The notes below the pieces were generated by a model that made no database searches, had not been told where the DNA came from, and saw only the letters and a program-made list of their open reading frames with translations. DNA of 25,802 bases from a virus: IMG/VR virus record IMGVR_UViG_3300037585_001580, positions 1 through 25,802 of that record, one strand, 5' to 3'. Positions 11,687 through 25,802 of the stretch are shown here, one piece after another (position 1 is the stretch's first letter; each line of letters starts with the position of its first letter). The position numbers and the translations under genes were made by a program.

Positions 11687-13253
11687 GATATACGGTCCTC
11701 CGGGAACGGGTAAAACACATACCTTAATTGAAAGAATACTTAAACGATACCTAGACAAGGGTGTACATCCTATGGATATTGCTTTTATATCCTTTACTAA
11801 TAAAGCAGTGAACACGGCTCAAGACAGAGCCTTAGCTGCTTTTCCTAAGTATACAGAAGATGACTTTGCACGTTTTAAAACATTACATAAGTATTGTAAG
11901 CGATACTTTGAGGAAGAAGTATTTGATCCTAAAAACTGTATGTTAGACTATGCGTTGCAGGCAAAAATAATTAAAACAAGTGATTCTAGATTAGTTGATG
12001 ATAATTTTCAATATAAGGATTGGTCTTTAGGTATTTACGATAAAGCTAGAAATATGATGGAAGACCCTATACTAGTTTATAAAAAAGAAACTTATAAAAA
12101 AGATAGTCTTGATGTATTTGTTAGAAAGATAAATACATATGAGCATTATAAAAAAGATAGCTTTATTGATTTTACAGACATGATTGAAAGAACAATAGAT
12201 GAAGTAGAGTTTCCTAAATTAAAAGTATTGATATTAGATGAAGCTCAGGACTTCACTCCGTTGCAGTGGTCTGTTCTTTACAAAATGGCTGACAATGTAA
12301 GTAGAATTTATATTGCAGGAGATGATGATCAAAGTATATATAAATGGAATGGTTCTGACCCTAAATACTTTACTAAATACTTTCCTGGTAGAAGGGTCAT
12401 ATTAAGACAAACTAGAAGATTTGGTGAAGCTATACATCACTTCAGCCAGATTATAAGAAGAGGTATATTAGATAGTGTAGAAAAAGAATATTACCCTAGA
12501 TCTAAAAAAGGTTATGTAAAAAGATATTTAAACTTTAATGAAGTTCCTATAGGTGATTTACCCGGTACTTGGTATATTCTAGGTCGTATAAATACTACAG
12601 TTAATGAGTTACGTTTTGCCGCTAAAAATGCTGGCCTATATTATGCTGATAATAAAGTAAACAAATCTTTTGATACTAAACAATGGGAAGGTATTAAAGC
12701 TTGGACAAGAATTAGTAAGGGTAAAGGTATTACAAAACTACAAGCAGAGAACATGTATAAATACATACGTGCTCTAAAAGATTTAGAGTATAGAACTCCT
12801 AGGTTTTGGTCAGGTTGTGTAGATGTTAAGTTATATGATTTTAATGAATTAAGAGATTGGTGTGGTTTAGATATGCAAAAAGAAGATATGTCTAGACCTT
12901 GGTGGGAGATTTTAACTAGAAATTTTACACCCGCTCAAACAGAATATTTTGTTCGTTTATTAAAAAGATATGGTCAACAAAAACTTGATGAAGACCCTCA
13001 AATAATTATAGACACTATACATAGTGTTAAAGGAGGAGAGGCTGACAATGTATTATTATATTCAAAAGCAAACTGGCCTTCTAACTTTTATAATAAAAAT
13101 GTAGATGAGAAATCAGATGAACGTAGAGTGATATACACAGGAGCTACAAGGGCTAGAGATACTCTACATATACTATCTAGTGATTATAAATACAATTACC
13201 CTATTGGACAAGATTATTTAATATATTTAAAGGAGAAAGATAATGAATTTTAA
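11622..13253 (+). CDS. UvrD/PcrA-family SF1 DNA helicase, 543 aa
   Basis: All main SF1A helicase motifs are visible: Walker A GPPGTGKTHT (25-34), motif Ia FISFTNKAV, motif II LDEAQDFTP (205-213), motif III AGDDDQSIYKWNG (232-244), motif IV RQTRRF (262-267), motif V DTIHSVKGGEADNV and motif VI VIYTGATRARD near 506-516. It is shorter than bacterial UvrD (about 720 aa) because the accessory 2B-type region is reduced, as is usual in phage enzymes. It likely unwinds DNA at the fork or during repair; no DnaB-type helicase is seen in the window. The start ATG 11622 lies within the primase gene, followed directly by a second ATG at 11625. Confidence 0.93.
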   Translation: MMSTTKDLGLLKQSQIYKKTIKIYGPPGTGKTHTLIERILKRYLDKGVHPMDIAFISFTNKAVNTAQDRALAAFPKYTEDDFARFKTLHKYCKRYFEEEVFDPKNCMLDYALQAKIIKTSDSRLVDDNFQYKDWSLGIYDKARNMMEDPILVYKKETYKKDSLDVFVRKINTYEHYKKDSFIDFTDMIERTIDEVEFPKLKVLILDEAQDFTPLQWSVLYKMADNVSRIYIAGDDDQSIYKWNGSDPKYFTKYFPGRRVILRQTRRFGEAIHHFSQIIRRGILDSVEKEYYPRSKKGYVKRYLNFNEVPIGDLPGTWYILGRINTTVNELRFAAKNAGLYYADNKVNKSFDTKQWEGIKAWTRISKGKGITKLQAENMYKYIRALKDLEYRTPRFWSGCVDVKLYDFNELRDWCGLDMQKEDMSRPWWEILTRNFTPAQTEYFVRLLKRYGQQKLDEDPQIIIDTIHSVKGGEADNVLLYSKANWPSNFYNKNVDEKSDERRVIYTGATRARDTLHILSSDYKYNYPIGQDYLIYLKEKDNEF

Positions 13254-13416
13254 AAAAATAATGAAAGATAAAAAAATAGATGTGCATCAAATGGCTTCTG
13301 ATTTAGATGTTTCATCTACACACATAATAAATTTAATTGAAAAAAGATATAGTCCTAGTTTAAAACTTTTAACAAAGATTAGAAAGGTTTATGATATACC
13401 TTTAGGAGGAGAATAA
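13243..13416 (+). CDS. Small XRE/Cro-type helix-turn-helix protein, 57 aa
   Basis: ATG 13243 has AAGGAGAAAGAT just upstream and overlaps the helicase stop. The peptide reads as a minimal Cro/CI-type HTH: helix VHQMASDLDV (14-23), a turn, SSTHIINLIEKRY (24-36) as recognition helix, then PSLKLLTKIRKVYDIP. It has no extra domain, so it would be a small DNA-binding regulator. It is one of two DNA-binding candidates for the recurrent 18-bp dyad, the other being the RHH-like protein at 16488. It is the first of four overlapping small genes between the helicase and DNA polymerase. Confidence 0.82.
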   Translation: MNFKKIMKDKKIDVHQMASDLDVSSTHIINLIEKRYSPSLKLLTKIRKVYDIPLGGE

Positions 13417-13974: not shown

Positions 13975-15814
13975 CTTAAAGAAGAATATATGGTCTGCAC
14001 CATTAGATTATAAAGATTTGTCGGAGGCAGATGAGATCGCAATAGATTTAGAAACCAAAGATGATGGTATAAATAATGGATTAGGTGCGGGGTGGGCTAC
14101 AGGTCGAGGAAAGATAGTTGGCTTTGCTGTAGCAACAGAAGGTTGGCAAGGTTATTACCCTATGGAACATTTTGGTGGTGGTAATTTAATTAAAGAACAA
14201 GTACTGCAATATATGAAAGACGTGTGTGCATTACCTTGTCGTAAGATATTCCACAATGCTCAATATGATGTAGGGTGGTTGAAGGCATATGGTATCGAAG
14301 TTCGTGGGGAAATTGTCGATACCATGATTGCTGGGGCTTTGATTAATGAAAACAGATATACTTATAAATTAAACGCTCTTGCTAAGGATTATTTAGGTGA
14401 GGTAAAAGCAGAGGGGGATTTAAATGAAGCGGCTCGTGCTCATGGTGTAGATCCGAAAGCTGAGATGTGGAAACTGCCAGCAGAATATGTTGGCTATTAC
14501 GCAGAGCAAGATGCACGGCTCACGTATCTTTTATGGCAAAGATTTAAACATGAAATTAGTAAGCAAGATTTACAAACAGTATGGGAACTAGAAAAAAACT
14601 TATTACCTGTGCTTATACAAATGCGTGAAAGAGGTGTACGAGTAGATGTTGAGAAAGCCGCTAAGTTACAAATAGATTTTGCACAAAAAGAAAAAACGGT
14701 ACTACATGCTATAAAAAAATTAAGTGGTGTAGATATTGATATATGGAATGCAAGACAGATTGGTTTTGCTTTTGATAAGTTAAATATTGACTATCCTAAA
14801 ACACCTAAAAGTGGAGAACCTAGTTTTACACAACAGTGGTTGTTAAGTGATTCTAATGAGATATCTAAACTTATTGTTCGTGCTAGAGAAGTAAATAAAT
14901 TTCATTCTACTTTTTTAGCTAGTGTTATGAAATATGAATACAAAGGACGTATTCATGCTGAGATACAACAGTTACGTAATGACTCCGGGGGAACAGTATC
15001 TGGCAGACTATCTATGTCAAACCCTAACCTACAACAACTACCAGCACGTAACAAGGAACTCGGCCCTTTAATTAGAGGTTTGTTCTTACCAGAAGAAGAT
15101 TGTAAATGGGGAAGTTTTGATTATAGTCAGCAAGAACCTAGAATGGCAGTACATTATGCTTCTGCAATTGGTTATGAAGGTAGTCAAGAACTCGTTGATT
15201 CTTACGCAAATGCAAGTGCGGATTTTCATCAAACTGTTGCAGACATCGTAGGTATTGACAGGAAACAAGCTAAGACTATTGGATTAGGTTTAATGTATGG
15301 TATGGGTAAAAATAAATTAGCTAATATGTTATCGCTACCTTTAGAAGATGCTACTAGTTTAATAAATAAATATAATCGTAAAGTACCTTTTATGAGAAAC
15401 TTATCTGAAAAATGTATGAGGCTTGCGTCAGACACAGGCACTATTAGAACTAAAAAAGGACGTAAGTGTAGATTTGATATGTGGGAGCCAAAAGATTTTG
15501 GAATACATGTAGCTGAACGATATGATAATGCTAGTGCTAAATATGGTAGAAATAATATTAAAAGAGCCTTTACTTATAAAGCCTTAAATAGATTGATACA
15601 AGGTTCTAGTGCTGATCAAACTAAAACTGCAATTATAGAATGTGCTAAAAAAGGTTATTTACCTATTCTGCAAATACATGATGAATTATGTTTTAATATA
15701 AAAGATGATGAAGACATAAAGAAAATAAAGAGAGAGATGGAGTCTTGTGTGGAACTGATAGTCCCATCTGTTGTCGATGTTGCCATCGGAGATGATTTCG
15801 GTCAAGCTACTTAA
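13949..15814 (+). CDS. Family A DNA polymerase with 3'-5' exonuclease, 621 aa
   Basis: The N-terminal proofreading domain has Exo I DLET (Asp33, Glu35), Exo II HNAQYD (Asn103, Asp107) and Exo III YAEQD (Tyr184, Asp188). The polymerase domain has motif A FDYSQQEPR (Asp391), motif B RKQAKTIGLGLMYG (Arg438, Lys442, Leu446, Tyr450) and motif C HDE (577-579). All catalytic acids are present. Leu446 corresponds to Phe762 of E. coli Pol I, which is Tyr in T7 polymerase. There is no 5'-3' nuclease domain, as usual for phage replicases. AGGGGG just upstream is the ribosome site for ATG 13949. It is the replicative polymerase, acting with the AEP primase and helicases. The stop meets a convergent small gene in an ACTTAAGT palindrome. 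Confidence 0.96.
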   Translation: MAAMQLVFNLKKNIWSAPLDYKDLSEADEIAIDLETKDDGINNGLGAGWATGRGKIVGFAVATEGWQGYYPMEHFGGGNLIKEQVLQYMKDVCALPCRKIFHNAQYDVGWLKAYGIEVRGEIVDTMIAGALINENRYTYKLNALAKDYLGEVKAEGDLNEAARAHGVDPKAEMWKLPAEYVGYYAEQDARLTYLLWQRFKHEISKQDLQTVWELEKNLLPVLIQMRERGVRVDVEKAAKLQIDFAQKEKTVLHAIKKLSGVDIDIWNARQIGFAFDKLNIDYPKTPKSGEPSFTQQWLLSDSNEISKLIVRAREVNKFHSTFLASVMKYEYKGRIHAEIQQLRNDSGGTVSGRLSMSNPNLQQLPARNKELGPLIRGLFLPEEDCKWGSFDYSQQEPRMAVHYASAIGYEGSQELVDSYANASADFHQTVADIVGIDRKQAKTIGLGLMYGMGKNKLANMLSLPLEDATSLINKYNRKVPFMRNLSEKCMRLASDTGTIRTKKGRKCRFDMWEPKDFGIHVAERYDNASAKYGRNNIKRAFTYKALNRLIQGSSADQTKTAIIECAKKGYLPILQIHDELCFNIKDDEDIKKIKREMESCVELIVPSVVDVAIGDDFGQAT

Positions 15815-18317: not shown

Positions 18318-19400
18318 TTAAAACATAGAAGGTTGTACTAAAGGTTTTAATAAATGTGCAATCACATCAATAGTCCAACCATTACCAATCATTTTGTATC
18401 GTTGTGTATTTGATACCCCTTCGGTATATTTATCTGGTAATGTTTGCAATCGTTCACATTCTAATGGAGTCAGTTTTCTCCAAGTTAGTTCCTCTGGATT
18501 TACTACTACATTATCTTTTTGTACTGTTGTTAGAGTATTGGTCTTTCCATCAATCCGTAATTCTAATTGTTGTTGGGTCATTCCTTTAACCGAATGTTTA
18601 TGATCTTGTCTTATCCCATCTATTTTGTAGCGACCTCTTACTGCTCCACAACATACTTTGGGTTCTCTATGTCCACCTTGCATAGTTGTTAATGTTGGTG
18701 CTTTGCCATCTGGTGAGTAAACTCGTTTAATACTATCGTGTCCTTTTATGTCTGCATCTCCAACTCGTAGACAACTATTAAAGACTAACTGCCTTCTAGA
18801 CTTTTGAATGTATTGTTTTAGATTACCACCCTTGAAATAGTTTGCATCAAGACAGTGGGACTTATCACGATCCACGCACCCACACTCTAATATATCTCGT
18901 AACAATATTTGTTGATCTTCTGGTTGAGAAACATTAGGTATGTTTGTCCAATATAATCTATTTCTATTTTGTGCAGACACCAAGGCACTATTAATGAGTA
19001 TAGGTTTTACTCCTAATTCTCGTGAAATCACATCTTGGTGTTCTTGTTTCATACGTACATTTTCAAGCAAAAAATATTTAGGTTTCATTTCATTTAATAC
19101 ACGTAAAAACTCCCAAAATAATTGACCTCGTTCATCTTCAAATGCTCGTCCCATTCCTGCAAAGCTAAATGATTGACACGGCGAACCACCCATAACCAAG
19201 TCAGGTGATTCTAGTTCCACTCCCCTCGAACCTAATTTCTGGATATCTCCTAAATGTTGTATATCTGGATAATTCTTGCTCGATATTTGTATCGCATATT
19301 TATCTATCTCCGAGGCTTGGTAGGATTCTACCTTTGCACCGATCTTGTCCAACGCAACACGACCACATGACATTCCGTCAAATAAAGATAACACTTTCAA
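18318..19400 (-). CDS. DNA cytosine-C5 methyltransferase (orphan), 360 aa
   Basis: All key C5-methyltransferase motifs are present: motif I LFDGMSCG (6-13), motif II-like SEID (30-33), motif IV GGSPCQSFSFAG (71-82) with catalytic Cys75, motif VI ENV (113-115), motif VIII QNRNRLYW (144-151), motif IX LTPLECERLQTLPDKYT and motif X RYKMIGNGWTIDVIAHLL. A recognition region lies between VIII and IX and includes several Cys/His. AAGGAGAAATAA gives a good ribosome site for ATG 19400. There is no restriction enzyme beside it, so it probably masks phage DNA from host restriction or regulates genes. It is the last gene of the leftward island operon. Confidence 0.95.
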   Translation of the reverse strand: MKVLSLFDGMSCGRVALDKIGAKVESYQASEIDKYAIQISSKNYPDIQHLGDIQKLGSRGVELESPDLVMGGSPCQSFSFAGMGRAFEDERGQLFWEFLRVLNEMKPKYFLLENVRMKQEHQDVISRELGVKPILINSALVSAQNRNRLYWTNIPNVSQPEDQQILLRDILECGCVDRDKSHCLDANYFKGGNLKQYIQKSRRQLVFNSCLRVGDADIKGHDSIKRVYSPDGKAPTLTTMQGGHREPKVCCGAVRGRYKIDGIRQDHKHSVKGMTQQQLELRIDGKTNTLTTVQKDNVVVNPEELTWRKLTPLECERLQTLPDKYTEGVSNTQRYKMIGNGWTIDVIAHLLKPLVQPSMF

Positions 19401-22061: not shown

Positions 22062-22099
22062 TATAAGATACATCTTATACTATATACGTATGTTGTCAA
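22062..22099 (-). promoter_or_regulatory. Promoter of the leftward operon with perfect 18-bp dyad operator
   Basis: On the minus strand TTGACA lies at 22099-22094, and 15 nt later begins TATAAGAT-GT-ATCTTATA (22079-22062), a perfect 8-bp inverted repeat around 2 bp. A weak -10 (TAAGAT, spacing 16) lies inside the dyad. The same dyad recurs at other promoters, so it is likely the binding site of a phage or host regulator. Confidence 0.6.
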
Positions 22100-22360
22100 A
22101 TCTATAATGTCATTCCTTACAACTTTTTTTTAAAAAGTAAGTGAAAAATAAGCAAATATTTTAGGAAACTAGGAAAATTAGCAGAAAACATAGTGTTACA
22201 GAGAAAAAGTTTTAGGAAAGTTTTAGGAAAAATTCCTAGTTTTTAGGAAAAATAACATAATTATTGTAAAAAACAGAGTATTTTATATACTTATCTTATT
22301 AGAGGGGGGTGCATTTTTTTTTAAAAAAAAAGTTCTAAGGAAGTGCATTAGAGTGTTTTT
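22100..22360. repeat. Non-coding control region with TTTTAGGAAA iterons and T9A9 tract
   Basis: No convincing gene lies between 22038 and 22361. TTTTAGGAAA occurs at 22159-22168, 22210-22219, 22221-22230 and 22241-22250, with a shorter AGGAAAA at 22171-22177. TTCCTA-GTTTT-TAGGAA forms an inverted repeat across 22233-22249. A CTTAC...GTAAG hairpin lies near 22116-22141, and a run of nine T followed by nine A lies near 22313-22330, flanked by GTGCATT twice. Iteron-like direct repeats in an AT-rich gap between divergent gene sets could be an origin, a packaging site or a regulator-binding array. Confidence 0.55.
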
Positions 22361-22774
22361 ATGACTATTACTGAATCAAAATTATGGGGTTGGATTAACC
22401 AGATTCAAAAGACAGAAAAGTCTTGGCATCTATTTAGAATTGAATCCTCTACAATCAATGGAATACCTGATGTTAATGCTTGTATTAATGGTAAGGATTT
22501 TTGGATAGAATTGAAGTGTAACAGAGGTAAGAATTTAGGTGTTAGCAAGTTTCAATCTGTTTGGCATCTTAAAAGAAAACAATCTGGTGGTAAATGTTTT
22601 ATTCTGAATGCGTCTAGCACGAAGAGAAGGCTTGAAGTTTTCGAGGTGCGAGAATCACGTTCTCGTTCTCGTTGCCCTTGCATCACGCATCTCGGTTCAG
22701 TTCAGTTTCAGTTCACTGCTGCTCCGGGGCTGGCCCGGGTCCGGGAATCAATATTATTAATGAGGGGTTTATAA
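22361..22774 (+). CDS. VRR-NUC-type PD-(D/E)XK nuclease with repeat-derived C-terminal tail, 137 aa
   Basis: The first ~95 residues have the VRR-NUC pattern: GIPDVNA (34-40, catalytic Asp37), WIELK (48-52, Glu50 and Lys52) and Gln65, as in small stand-alone phage nucleases thought to act on branched DNA. After about residue 96 (RESRSRSRCPC and onward) the frame runs into the first CTCGTT-type GC-rich element and continues for some 40 residues of unusual Ser/Arg/Gly composition. That tail probably results from the element lying over the original gene end. The weak AGAGTG before ATG 22361 is the only ribosome site. It is the first gene of the rightward half of the island. Confidence 0.72.
   Translation: MTITESKLWGWINQIQKTEKSWHLFRIESSTINGIPDVNACINGKDFWIELKCNRGKNLGVSKFQSVWHLKRKQSGGKCFILNASSTKRRLEVFEVRESRSRSRCPCITHLGSVQFQFTAAPGLARVRESILLMRGL
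22649..22747 (+). repeat. GC-rich CTCGTT element, copy 1 (inside the nuclease ORF)
   Basis: CGAGAA (22649-22654) can pair with TTCTCG (22660-22665). A short CGTTCT hexamer run (22658-22675) follows, then a linker with repeated TTCAG (TTCAGTTCAGTTTCAGTT, from 22696) and a GC-rich end with CCCGGG and CCGGG (22734-22745). Order and composition match copies 2-4, but here the hexamers overlap the 3' end of a coding frame. Confidence 0.7.
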
Positions 22775-22781
22775 AAAAAGA

Positions 22782-22810
22782 GTTGTAATGTGTCTTATAT
22801 CTGTTATGAT
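22782..22810 (+). promoter_or_regulatory. Promoter with half-site of the 18-bp dyad
   Basis: TTGTAA (22783-22788), 16 nt, then TATGAT (22805-22810), form a modest sigma70-like promoter before the gene at 22840. GTCTTATA (22792-22799) between the boxes is the conserved right half of the dyad; the left half is degenerate. Confidence 0.35.
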
Positions 22811-22839
22811 GATATTTTAACAATATAAAAGGTGAATGT

Positions 22840-23007
22840 ATGAAAGAAGAATTTTTAAAAGGGTTGCTGAAGTACGGCAGAGAAAAAGGTTTTATAGATG
22901 ACAAGCCTGAAGAAGGAAAAACTTATACCTTGGTGGGTGTGGGCAAGTGCATTGCTAACGGAAACAGTTGGCAAGACTCGGAGGTGAAGAAGAACGACAA
23001 AAAATAA
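22840..23007 (+). CDS. Hypothetical protein, 55 aa
   Basis: ATG 22840 is preceded by AAAGGTGA. The protein MKEEFLKGLLKYGREKGF, then EEGKTYTLVGVGKCIANGNS and a Lys-rich end, resembles a small basic alpha/beta protein. Base use becomes GC-richer towards the 3' end, unlike neighbours. The stop at 23005-23007 is followed within 9 nt by element copy 2, giving a promoter-gene-element unit. Confidence 0.65.
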   Translation: MKEEFLKGLLKYGREKGFIDDKPEEGKTYTLVGVGKCIANGNSWQDSEVKKNDKK

Positions 23008-23016
23008 ATCGTAACT

Positions 23017-23100
23017 CTCGTTCTCGTTCTCGTTCTCGTTGCAACGAGAACGAGGCTTTAGTTTAAGTTTCAGTTACCCGGCAGCTGGCAGCATGATCCG
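23017..23100 (+). repeat. GC-rich CTCGTT element, copy 2
   Basis: Four CTCGTT hexamers (23017-23040) are followed by GC and AACGAGAACGAG (23043-23054), which pairs perfectly with the last two hexamers in a 12-bp stem. Then comes an AGTT-rich linker (to about 23085) and a GC-rich part where CCCGG (23087-23091) can pair with CCGGG (23098-23102). The element starts 9 nt after a stop codon. Confidence 0.82.
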
Positions 23101-23102
23101 GG

Positions 23103-23130
23103 ACACAGGGAAGCTGTGTGATTTTTTTTT
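23103..23130 (+). terminator. Rho-independent terminator at the end of element copy 2
   Basis: ACACAG (23103-23108), 5-nt loop GGAAG, CTGTGT (23114-23119), then GA and nine T (23122-23130). It ends transcription of the 55-aa gene before the promoter at 23141. Confidence 0.75.
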
Positions 23131-23140
23131 ATTTTTTTAC

Positions 23141-23172
23141 TTGCTTTATTATTATATGAGATGTATCTTATA
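23141..23172 (+). promoter_or_regulatory. Promoter with near-perfect 18-bp dyad
   Basis: TTGCTT (23141-23146), 17 nt, TATCTT (23164-23169) give a weak sigma70-like promoter. TATGAGAT-GT-ATCTTATA (23155-23172) matches the perfect dyad at 22062 with one change in the arms and covers the -10 box, 26 nt before ATG 23199. Confidence 0.5.
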
Positions 23173-23198
23173 TATATAACTTATAGGAGAATAAAAAA

Positions 23199-23759
23199 AT
23201 GAACTTTGAAACTGAACAACAAATATATAATATGTTAACTGAAAGCACTGGAACGCACTTTCTAGATAGTGGGGGTGGCAGTGGTAGACATTGGCAACAA
23301 AACAAAAAAAGAACTTTGGAGGACTTCAAAAAAGATAAAGTTTTTATTTACGAACCTGATGATATTTATAGTATTTGTAAAAGTGTATTTCATCACTTGG
23401 TTGAAAGTGTCCGATATAATAAAGAGTTAAACGAGGATCTAGAAAACTTTTTAAAAGCTAGTAAAGAGGACAATTGGAGGGTACCCGTTGAACAATATCT
23501 ACAGTTACACAATAAAGATAAAAAAATAGATCATATAAATACATATAATGAGGAATGTGTATTATCCCAAACGTTGCAAATAATAACTATTGGGGACATG
23601 TACGAAAATGAAACTGTTGCTTTATCAATACACAACGGTGCAGATGTTAGGGGTGGATATACCGATTTTAAAATATTTGATATTGATACAGATATGTTTT
23701 ATATGTGGCATCCTGAACACTATGACTATTTAGTTAAAAGCGAGGGGGTGGGTTCATGA
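23199..23759 (+). CDS. Conserved phage accessory protein, 186 aa
   Basis: ATG 23199 follows ATAGGAGAATAA. The N-terminal block MLTESTGTHFLDSGGGSGRHW (cut: LTESTGTHFLDSGGG and GRHWQQN) is a conserved signature I have seen in phage-encoded accessory proteins of unknown function. The rest is acidic and aromatic (IYEPDDIYSICKSVFHHLVES; later ALSIHNGADVRGGYTDFKIF). It has no membrane span and no clear enzyme motif. The stop (23757-23759) is followed after 9 nt by CTCGTT element copy 3. It is a good example of the promoter/dyad, gene, element unit in the right half of the island. Confidence 0.75.
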   Translation: MNFETEQQIYNMLTESTGTHFLDSGGGSGRHWQQNKKRTLEDFKKDKVFIYEPDDIYSICKSVFHHLVESVRYNKELNEDLENFLKASKEDNWRVPVEQYLQLHNKDKKIDHINTYNEECVLSQTLQIITIGDMYENETVALSIHNGADVRGGYTDFKIFDIDTDMFYMWHPEHYDYLVKSEGVGS

Positions 23760-23768
23760 GTTCCCTTT

Positions 23769-23847
23769 CTCGTTCTCGTTCTCGTTGGGCAACGCAAATG
23801 CGTTGCCCTTTCAGTCTAGTTACAGCGGCCCGGGCCAGGGAAGCTGC
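23769..23847 (+). repeat. GC-rich CTCGTT element, copy 3
   Basis: Three CTCGTT hexamers (23769-23786), then GGGCAACGCA (23787-23796), two A, and TGCGTTGCCC (23799-23808), a perfect 10-bp stem. A short linker with CTAGTTAC follows, then GGCCCGGGCC (23827-23836), a self-complementary dyad enclosed by CAGC (23823) and GCTG (23843). The element begins 9 nt after the stop of the 186-aa gene. Confidence 0.85.
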
Positions 23848-23865
23848 AAGCTCAAGGAGGACAGT

Positions 23866-23979
23866 ATGATTTTTGTCGGTGTACTCATTGGGTTTGTGTT
23901 CTTGGTTTTCCTAGTCTTGCGGTGGTTTCTATTACTGACAATCGTGAGCCTTGCGATCTGGCTACTGGTGACACTGTGA
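23866..23979 (+). CDS. Very hydrophobic small membrane protein, 37 aa
   Basis: ATG 23866 has an excellent ribosome site AAGGAGGAC; a longer frame from 23785 would start inside element copy 3 and is unlikely. The peptide MIFVGVLIGFVFLVFLVLRW, then FLLLTIVSLAIWLLVTL, is hydrophobic except for one Arg (residue 19), giving two short or one long membrane segment. GC content is well above that of the neighbours, suggesting a recent acquisition. The stop (23977-23979) is followed after a single base by element copy 4. Confidence 0.7.
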   Translation: MIFVGVLIGFVFLVFLVLRWFLLLTIVSLAIWLLVTL

Positions 23980-23980
23980 T

Positions 23981-24057
23981 CTCGTTCTCGTTCTCGTTGC
24001 CGAAGGGAAATGGGCTTTTGATTAGTTATAGTTAGCTGCCTGGTACCAGGAAGCAGC
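23981..24057 (+). repeat. GC-rich CTCGTT element, copy 4
   Basis: Three CTCGTT hexamers (23981-23998), a G/A-rich stretch, an AGTTATAGTTA linker, then GCTG before the perfect palindrome CCTGGTACCAGG (24039-24050), AA and GCAGC (24053-24057). The outer GCTGC/GCAGC stem encloses the palindrome. It starts one base after the stop of the 37-aa gene. Confidence 0.82.
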
Positions 24058-24082
24058 AGAAATAAATATTTATGAGGACATA

Positions 24083-24153
24083 TATCTGATGTGTCTTATA
24101 GGATATTCCTATAGTAGATATAGGTTGCATCTATAAGACATATCTTATATACT
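24083..24153 (+). promoter_or_regulatory. Two dyad copies with promoter before the 83-aa gene
   Basis: TATCTGAT-GT-GTCTTATA (24083-24100) and TATAAGAC-AT-ATCTTATA (24132-24149) are two copies of the 18-bp dyad, 31 nt apart. A promoter TTGCAT (24125-24130), 17 nt, TATACT (24148-24153) overlaps the second one. GGATATTCC (24101-24109) separates them and is itself a small palindrome. Confidence 0.5.
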
Positions 24154-24192
24154 ATATTTATTATTAACAAATGAAATGACTTGGAGGTCAAA

Positions 24193-25081: not shown

Positions 25082-25802
25082 ATGCAAAAAGAAAACTTAC
25101 CAGTAGAGAAACTGAGGCTCGAGGTTGAGAGGCTCTTGTTACAACACATCAAGCTTTGTCAAGATAATTTTTTATATTTTGTACAAGAGATATGGCCAGA
25201 TTTTATATGTAGAAAAGAAAAAAATAGAAAAAAGTGGGGCCATCATCAAATCATAGCAGATGAGTTTACTAATGTAGCAAAAGAAAAAAAAGGGAGGCTC
25301 ATTATAAATATGCCACCCAGACATACAAAATCTGAATTTGCTTCTGTATACTACCCTGCTTGGATGATAGGAAAGTATCCAAAAATGAAAATTATGCAAG
25401 TGTCTCATAATACAGAACTTGCAGTAAGGTTCGGTAGTAAGGTTCGTAACATTATTGATTCACCAGAGTATAAACAAATTTTTGGAGACGTGAGACTTCG
25501 TGAGGACTCCAAGGCAAAAGGAAGATGGGAAACTAGTCATGGTGGTGAATATTATGCAGCGGGCGTTGGAGCGTCCATCACGGGTCGTGGTGCGGACTTA
25601 TTGATTATTGATGATCCACACACGGAACAAGACTCTATGTCGGACATGGCAATGGAACGTGCTTATGAATGGTACACCTCAGGACCACGACAAAGATTAC
25701 AACCAGGAGGCTCAATTTTAGTGGTAATGACAAGATGGGCTGAAGATGATTTGACTGGTAGATTGTTAAAGGCTCAAACGGAACCTAAAGCAGATACATG
25801 GA
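25082..25802 (+). CDS. terL: Terminase large subunit, N-terminal ATPase part (runs off the window)
   Basis: The visible 240 residues include an early LCQDNFLYFVQEIWP region (25-39), HHQIIADEF (54-62), the Walker A-like MPPRHTKSEFAS (77-88), Walker B LLIIDDPH (173-180) with catalytic Asp177/Asp178, and the coupling motif VVMTRW (214-219). This is the usual pattern of phage large terminases with a PRHTKS-type P-loop. The C-terminal nuclease domain lies beyond the window. An in-frame TAG directly before ATG 25082 fixes this as the first ATG; the ribosome site is weak. It packages DNA with the small subunit at 17724, from which it is separated by the island. Confidence 0.92.
   Translation, partial: MQKENLPVEKLRLEVERLLLQHIKLCQDNFLYFVQEIWPDFICRKEKNRKKWGHHQIIADEFTNVAKEKKGRLIINMPPRHTKSEFASVYYPAWMIGKYPKMKIMQVSHNTELAVRFGSKVRNIIDSPEYKQIFGDVRLREDSKAKGRWETSHGGEYYAAGVGASITGRGADLLIIDDPHTEQDSMSDMAMERAYEWYTSGPRQRLQPGGSILVVMTRWAEDDLTGRLLKAQTEPKADTW

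Follow-up and report, generated by a model that had tools for sequence, protein, structure and literature searches.

The NUC-TerL interval and its elements

The DNA analysed here (the window, 25,802 nucleotides) is a 25.8-kb piece of an HTVC023P-like pelagiphage, whose DNA polymerase shares 69% identity with its counterpart in Pelagibacter phage HTVC023P. HTVC023P-type phages are the most abundant known virus group of the ocean bacterium SAR11. Over 7.5 kb, the window is 99.9% identical to a locus on a contig of 43 kb (L121). Four repeat elements, E1 to E4, all lie at 22641-24062, between a nuclease gene (NUC) and the gene for the terminase large subunit (TerL; 25082..25802, + strand, cut by the window end), which forms the downstream boundary of the variable locus. 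Elsewhere, the window carries a C5 cytosine DNA methylase gene on its minus strand (18318-19400; PF00145, 3.1e-46). In the window clade, TAGGAAA repeats form a cluster before NUC (window 22160-22255), and in HTVC023P they do so before terS (L115 11680-11780); counted over the whole sequence, they showed no excess.

NUC (22361..22774, + strand) is a PD-(D/E)XK (VRR-NUC-like) nuclease gene with the motif NGIPDV...FWIELK. It matched the profiles phrog_2165 (2.5e-15) and phrog_5702, a Holliday junction resolvase (0.0038), and weakly the phage nuclease 4qbo (E 0.073); in Pfam no family scored above the cut-off, and the curated VRR_NUC profile was unmatched. The conserved domain extends to about 22657, and the C-terminal tail (22641-22774) is translated from E1 (22641..22752, + strand), which consists of a (CTCGTT)n tract in frame, read as S-R-S-R-S-R, a hairpin, a TTCAGT linker and the GC dyad CCGGGGCTGGCCCGGGTCCGG. 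An earlier note, made from the sequence of this DNA, had described the first copy as overlapping the end of a nuclease ORF, and the E1 tract does lie inside the C-terminal coding end of 22361-22774. Among related loci, the first tract falls within the NUC reading frame in 57 of 60, usually 8-46 nt beyond the conserved domain, giving element-derived tails such as SRSRSR, PFPVSRFPF and similar. A nuclease tail translated from an element recalls the in-frame palindromic elements known in Rickettsia. NUC occurs also in relatives that carry no element at all.

The remaining features are likewise on the + strand. Gene A (22840..23007; 55 aa, function unassigned) has orthologues in L125 and L122 and a related family in 29 loci. 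It is followed by E2 (23017..23120), with (CTCGTT)4, a 12-bp hairpin (CTCGTTCTCGTT-GC-AACGAGAACGAG), a U-rich tail and a GC module, after which a second terminator-like hairpin with a T run is found (23103-23119). Gene X (23199..23759; 186 aa, phrog_11344, function unassigned) stands where L125 has gene B. E3 (23769..23860) contains (CTCGTT)3, the hairpin GGGCAACGCAAATGCGTTGCCC, a linker and the GC dyad CAGC-GGCCCGGGCC-GCTG, with a Shine-Dalgarno sequence directly after it. The next gene, TM (23866..23979), is predicted to encode a hydrophobic membrane protein of 37 aa; it has an orthologue in L125 (3506-3619), and a similar 37-aa protein is encoded at the equal place in L122. E4 (23981..24062) has (CTCGTT)3, a weak stem, a AGTTATAGTTA linker and the GC dyad GCTGCCTGGTACCAGGAAGCAGC.

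All four elements of the earlier note were thus found in place and with the shared architecture it had given them, and its spacings were exact: the tracts of E2, E3 and E4 start 9 nt after the stop codon at 23007, 9 nt after that at 23759 and 1 nt after that at 23979, respectively. When up to two mismatches were allowed, CTCGTTCTCGTT had 12 matches in the window, 11 of them inside the four elements; the mean in 100 shuffles was 0.9 and the maximum 4. The elements are also GC-rich islands in AT-rich DNA, as had been noted, with a GC content of 0.57 (E1), 0.45 (E2), 0.57 (E3) and 0.46 (E4) against 0.324 in the rest of the window. The proposed 'AGTTA linker' needs rewording: it is better seen as a degenerate U-rich tail of the first hairpin, which reads TTTTTTTGTTTT in E2 of L341 and L342.

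Dozens of contigs from related marine phages show the same element architecture between NUC and TerL, so that the elements form a family reaching beyond this phage. A scan of IMG/VR for (CTCGTT)3 gave 106 stretches; in most of the AT-rich ones, NUC lies a short way upstream of the first tract and, if the contig is long enough, TerL lies 2-4 kb downstream. Loci found in this way are selected for the CTCGTT unit. Loci fetched via TerL alone, with the repeat playing no part as a criterion, had a like architecture with other units (CCCGTT, CCGTCCCG). Many of the compared contigs are fragments, and their gene calls are automatic. In 91 non-redundant regions beginning at NUC, 194 tandem CTCGTT/CCCGTT tracts ran with the genes and 3 against them, the 3 being E2 hairpin arms (shuffles, 0), and 35 of 134 tracts started 0-10 nt after a stop codon.

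The cultured phages HTVC027P and 023Pt_psg01 have GC-rich tandem repeats of their own in the NUC-TerL interval. When the elements were compared as DNA with cultured phages, they had no relevant match. In HTVC027P, where the NUC-TerL region spans about 16.2-20.4 kb, the repeats are of the CAAGCC/CAAGCT type and lie around the minus-strand genes gp32-gp34 (L119 16499-17877); the transcriptome of HTVC027P during infection has been published (PMC12753301). HTVC023P itself has threefold AT-rich direct repeats after NUC in the same interval (L115 12466-12560, CTTGAGAATACATACCGAAAATTTTT; 14940-15080, TTGAGAATAACAACGAAA). A search of viral contigs for the CCCGTT pattern plus AGTTA gave 0 matches, probably because the pattern was too strict. 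A bacterial origin was considered and rejected: in a pattern scan of genome contigs, the matches listed were scattered and chance-like, and the sole Pelagibacteraceae match among them (L263) has neither nuclease nor TerL and looks like chance. The main text of a pangenome study of HTVC023P-type phages (PMC9599517) seems not to describe the elements, since the words 'intergenic', 'hypervariable' and 'noncoding' do not appear there.

Predicted terminator, promoter and operator signals

The E2 hairpin of the window, together with its T tail, scored as a terminator. Similarly, E2 and E3 of L125 both score as intrinsic terminators, as does E2 of L341, in which an 11-bp GC-rich stem is followed by TTTTTTTGTT. 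Over all elements, 17 terminator-like hairpins were counted on the + strand, where 6.8 were expected, and 5 on the - strand, where 8.2 were expected. By strict criteria, a canonical hairpin plus T run was present in only 17 of 189 element blocks. Promoter-like sites followed 26 of 115 element blocks (8.3 expected); the window's own promoters were weak matches, with no excess over shuffles. After E1 stands a sigma-70-like promoter, TTGTAA-16-TATGAT (22783..22810, + strand), with the operator-like sequence AATGTGTCTTATA at 22787. The promoter region after E2 (23141..23175, + strand), read by eye as TTGCTT-17-TATCTT, has the operator-like GATGTATCTTATA at 23160-23172, and an operator/promoter block, GATGTGTCTTATAGGATATTCCTATA...CTATAAGACATATCTTATA, which is conserved across the clade, follows E4 (24082..24160, + strand). 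GATGTATCTTATA had 10 matches in the window against 1.8 expected, clustered (22062-24149) after E1, E2 and E4 and before the minus-strand operon. The window also encodes a Cro/CI-type HTH protein (13243-13416). No promoter of TM's own is visible between E3 and TM; full termination at E3 would therefore silence TM.

Most likely, as judged from these sequence features, the modules punctuate transcription between small genes. The locus would then be an accessory-gene interval between NUC and TerL of HTVC023P-type pelagiphages, with the modules as its intergenic punctuation. Every module stands after a small gene and is made up of tandem tract, hairpin, U-rich tail and fast-changing GC-rich dyad. 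The hairpin, often made from the tract, forms with the U-rich tail a design of the intrinsic-terminator type, and many modules have a predicted promoter region with a shared operator behind them. A module may in this way end the transcript of the upstream gene and leave the next gene under its own control. Several points count against the punctuation reading: the small share of blocks with a canonical hairpin plus T run, the weak fold excess of E1 and its absence in E4, the expected silencing of TM, the weak promoter matches of the window, and a finding from E. coli that ribosomes can repress a terminator if it lies only a few nucleotides beyond the stop codon (PMC4824070).

It is conceivable, though unlikely, that the elements are REP/BIME-like protectors of mRNA 3' ends, the hairpins of which would block exonucleases and stabilise the upstream mRNA while transcription continues. 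The REP, BIME and REPIN sequences of bacterial chromosomes are likewise palindromes, short and rich in GC, that lie close to gene 3' ends in several copies per genome, and the place right after stop codons, the strand-fixed orientation and the GC-rich dyads of the elements would suit such a role, as would E3, which stands directly before TM and is seemingly co-transcribed with it. However, terminator-type T tails are in excess on the gene strand only and are plainly visible in relatives at E2 and E3, promoter-like sites follow the elements above chance, and the Y1 (RAYT) transposase (PF01797) was found in 0 of 7 related records. The elements also differ from REP/BIME/REPIN sequences in having no RAYT found with them and no established GTAG-type flank, in their few copies at one locus and single orientation, and in the tandem tract on their 5' side.

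Rho-type termination appears less probable than mRNA protection. In this case, C-rich, G-poor repeats after the stop codon would load Rho, and the hairpins would mark the trimmed 3' end. The T run is missing from most elements, C exceeds G on the sense strand of the units in TerL-linked relatives (CTCGTT, CCCGTT, CCGTCCCG), and the tracts are mostly in untranslated RNA. On the other hand, this excess of C over G is partly given by the tract definition, the tracts are often sequestered within the hairpin (E2), and the E1 tract is translated.

Leader inserts of ~100-240 nt were observed between promoter and Shine-Dalgarno sequence in L040 (752-845), L091 (640-870) and L095 (868-1074), in coordinates of the NUC-started regions; they are absent in close relatives. 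It is possible that they are new leader RNAs; Rfam gave no match in these three loci.

Pairing and within-genome uniformity of the elements

Fold z-scores were -3.4 for E2, -2.4 for E3, -1.4 for E1 and about 0 for E4. Thus, an excess of structure is established for E2 and E3 only, and E1 and E4 stand on architecture, not on structure statistics. At the gathering score, Rfam had 0 matches in 11 related loci and, in the window, matched only a glutamine riboswitch elsewhere (RF01739, 4944-4991, + strand, 47.7 bits). The order of tract and hairpin differs between E2-type and E3-type elements, and MAFFT misregisters the stems; paired changes were counted on orthologous hairpins instead of with a covariance model over all copies. 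The E3 hairpin has the variants GGGCAACGCAAATGCGTTGCCC, GGGCTTTGCTTATGCAAAGCCC, GGGAAACGCAGTTGCGTTTCCC and GGGAAATGCAATCGCATTTCCC in four phages, in which 36 of 36 cells were paired and both sides had changed in 4 of 9 pairs. This covariation score was reached by 0 of 500 shuffles, in a test that favours the unslid structure, the stem having been defined from these same four sequences. The view that hairpin arms differ yet stay self-complementary was therefore upheld by E3, the pairing of which was kept through double-sided changes. The orthologous E2 hairpins covaried at 2 of 10 pairs; since the E2 arms are tract copies, this covariation may have a mutational origin.

Copies within one genome are uniform: 203 of 207 within-genome tract pairs shared the unit class, where a fraction of 0.57 was expected. 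A strongly supported clade unites the window, L120 and L125, which have CTCGTT, with L122 and L150, which have CCCGTT. It follows that the unit changed across several positions within that clade.

These data bear on a further alternative, which we consider about as improbable as Rho-type termination: selfish or mutational GC-rich hexamer satellites, expanded by slippage and template switching, spread by gene conversion, of little function and tolerated where they follow stop codons. Tandem units that are uniform within a genome, and E2 hairpin arms copied from the tract, speak for this explanation; so do the head-to-tail element arrays free of genes in L152 and L176 and an extra copy in L122 and L342. 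In contrast, E3 pairing is kept by compensatory changes unrelated to the tract, the strand bias is 194:3, and E1-E4 keep their positions in phages that have diverged, a fast-changing GC module lying beside a slower hairpin.

Gene exchange at the elements and the nearest known system

Comparison of related phages, as suggested in the earlier note, revealed directly a single exchange whose two breaks both fall in elements, one reversal of gene order, and the gain or loss of a whole element copy. Homology between the window and L125 covers NUC, E1, gene A and the hairpin and linker of E2, ending at 23075; it begins again at 23766, where the E3 tract starts. Between these breaks, the window has gene X (186 aa) and L125 has gene B (116 aa). 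The gene order is B-A, not A-B, in L122, L341, L342, L150 and L344. At E4, L122 and L342 have one extra whole element relative to L341 and L150. The X/B exchange and the A/B reversal are single events each. Fixed neighbours and a lack of covariation, which the note had taken to speak against its cassette idea, were not what we found.

The idea of gene-plus-element cassettes nevertheless held only in part: exchange and reordering occur in the window clade, but breakpoints show no enrichment at the tracts when the wider family is considered. Among close relatives there, 2 insertion/deletion breakpoints lay within 30 nt of tracts against 4.9 expected, and there was only a mild excess within 250 nt downstream of tracts (29 against 19.0 expected). 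Relatives free of elements change genes too. Element borders as cassette borders in general were not supported, given these unenriched breakpoints and the variation of element-free loci. Taken together, the elements may be homology joints, but they are not required for gene change.

Integron-like cassettes, mobilised on their hairpins by a dedicated recombinase or the neighbouring nuclease, are very improbable: NUC borders the array, with the first element in its 3' end in 57 of 60 loci, in some relatives NUC adjoins TerL with almost nothing between (empty loci), and the one exchange ends in elements on both sides, but a tyrosine integrase (PF00589) was found in 0 of 7 related records (controls, 14/14), although IMG/VR records may be incomplete, breakpoints of the wider family are not at tracts, and NUC is present where elements are not. 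The attC core pair RYYYAAC/GTTRRRY was in none of the elements, E3 having one lone GTTGGGC. The absence of these core sites, and of integrase and Y1 transposase in the seven records, makes an integron-like system unlikely, and an attC-like mechanism is not supported. As with attC sites, each gene is followed by an element able to form a hairpin, genes and elements come in series, and gene order varies; the differences are the missing integrase and core pair, an exchanged segment that includes the promoter, and breakpoints not generally at elements. The data agree better with the other suggestion of the earlier note, an RNA element that insulates transcription, or with one that terminates it.

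The reading of the elements as punctuation modules of terminator plus promoter, with a second role as homology joints, has, in our judgement, a probability of about 0.6. Within it, we infer transcription termination, promoter use and, as the route of exchange, homologous recombination. Since the copies of a genome all resemble one another and run in the same direction, the elements can act as homology joints, and promoter-plus-gene segments would be exchanged between phages through them as short stretches of homology. Far more speculative, and quite doubtful, is that NUC-TerL is a dedicated exchange locus, where NUC would cut the hairpins of its own repeats at co-infection, matching elements would let SAR11 phages trade promoter-gene units, and hexamer change would restrict partners to those with the same unit.

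Composite promoter/stem-loop motifs that shuffle genes of T4-like phages, termed PeSLs (promoter early stem-loops), were reportedly described by Arbiol et al. in 2010 and Comeau et al. in 2014. According to a further account citing this work, PeSLs are repeated intergenic stem-loop/terminator and promoter motifs, dense among small accessory genes and reported to mediate gene shuffling between related phages (PMC4503421). As far as that account goes, they are a phage system of the form for which the earlier note knew no example and, on present evidence, would be the nearest described one, apparently alike in working, without common sequence. The likeness includes a stem-loop/terminator between small genes, E2 and E3 scoring as terminators in the window or in orthologues, but terminator-type stem-loops occur in only a minority of wider-family elements. 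As to a promoter beside the stem-loop, promoter-like sites number 26 against 8.3 expected and the operator stands after E1, E2 and E4, but none was found after E3 and the window itself has no excess. As to shuffling that ends at the motif, the clade has one exchange and one reversal, and the wider family shows no enrichment. Unlike PeSLs, with their T4-type early promoter and T4-like genome, the elements belong to an HTVC023P-like SAR11 podovirus with plain sigma-70-like promoters; their stem-loop is made of a tandem hexamer tract that varies between phages, a second GC dyad is added, the first copy is fused in frame to a nuclease gene, and all lie in one hypervariable locus before TerL. The TAACTGA direct repeats of marine Beggiatoaceae are also short intergenic tandem repeats, with a proposed post-transcriptional role, but they stand before start codons in bacterial genomes, have another unit and are without hairpin plus GC dyad (PMC4679880).

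If the punctuation reading is right, it would explain the turnover and independent control of small accessory genes in a very abundant ocean virus group. It would also provide a second case of PeSL-like punctuation, one unrelated in sequence and found in phages other than the T4-like ones. A repeat that is uniform within a genome and changed between genomes would, moreover, make concerted evolution in phages measurable.
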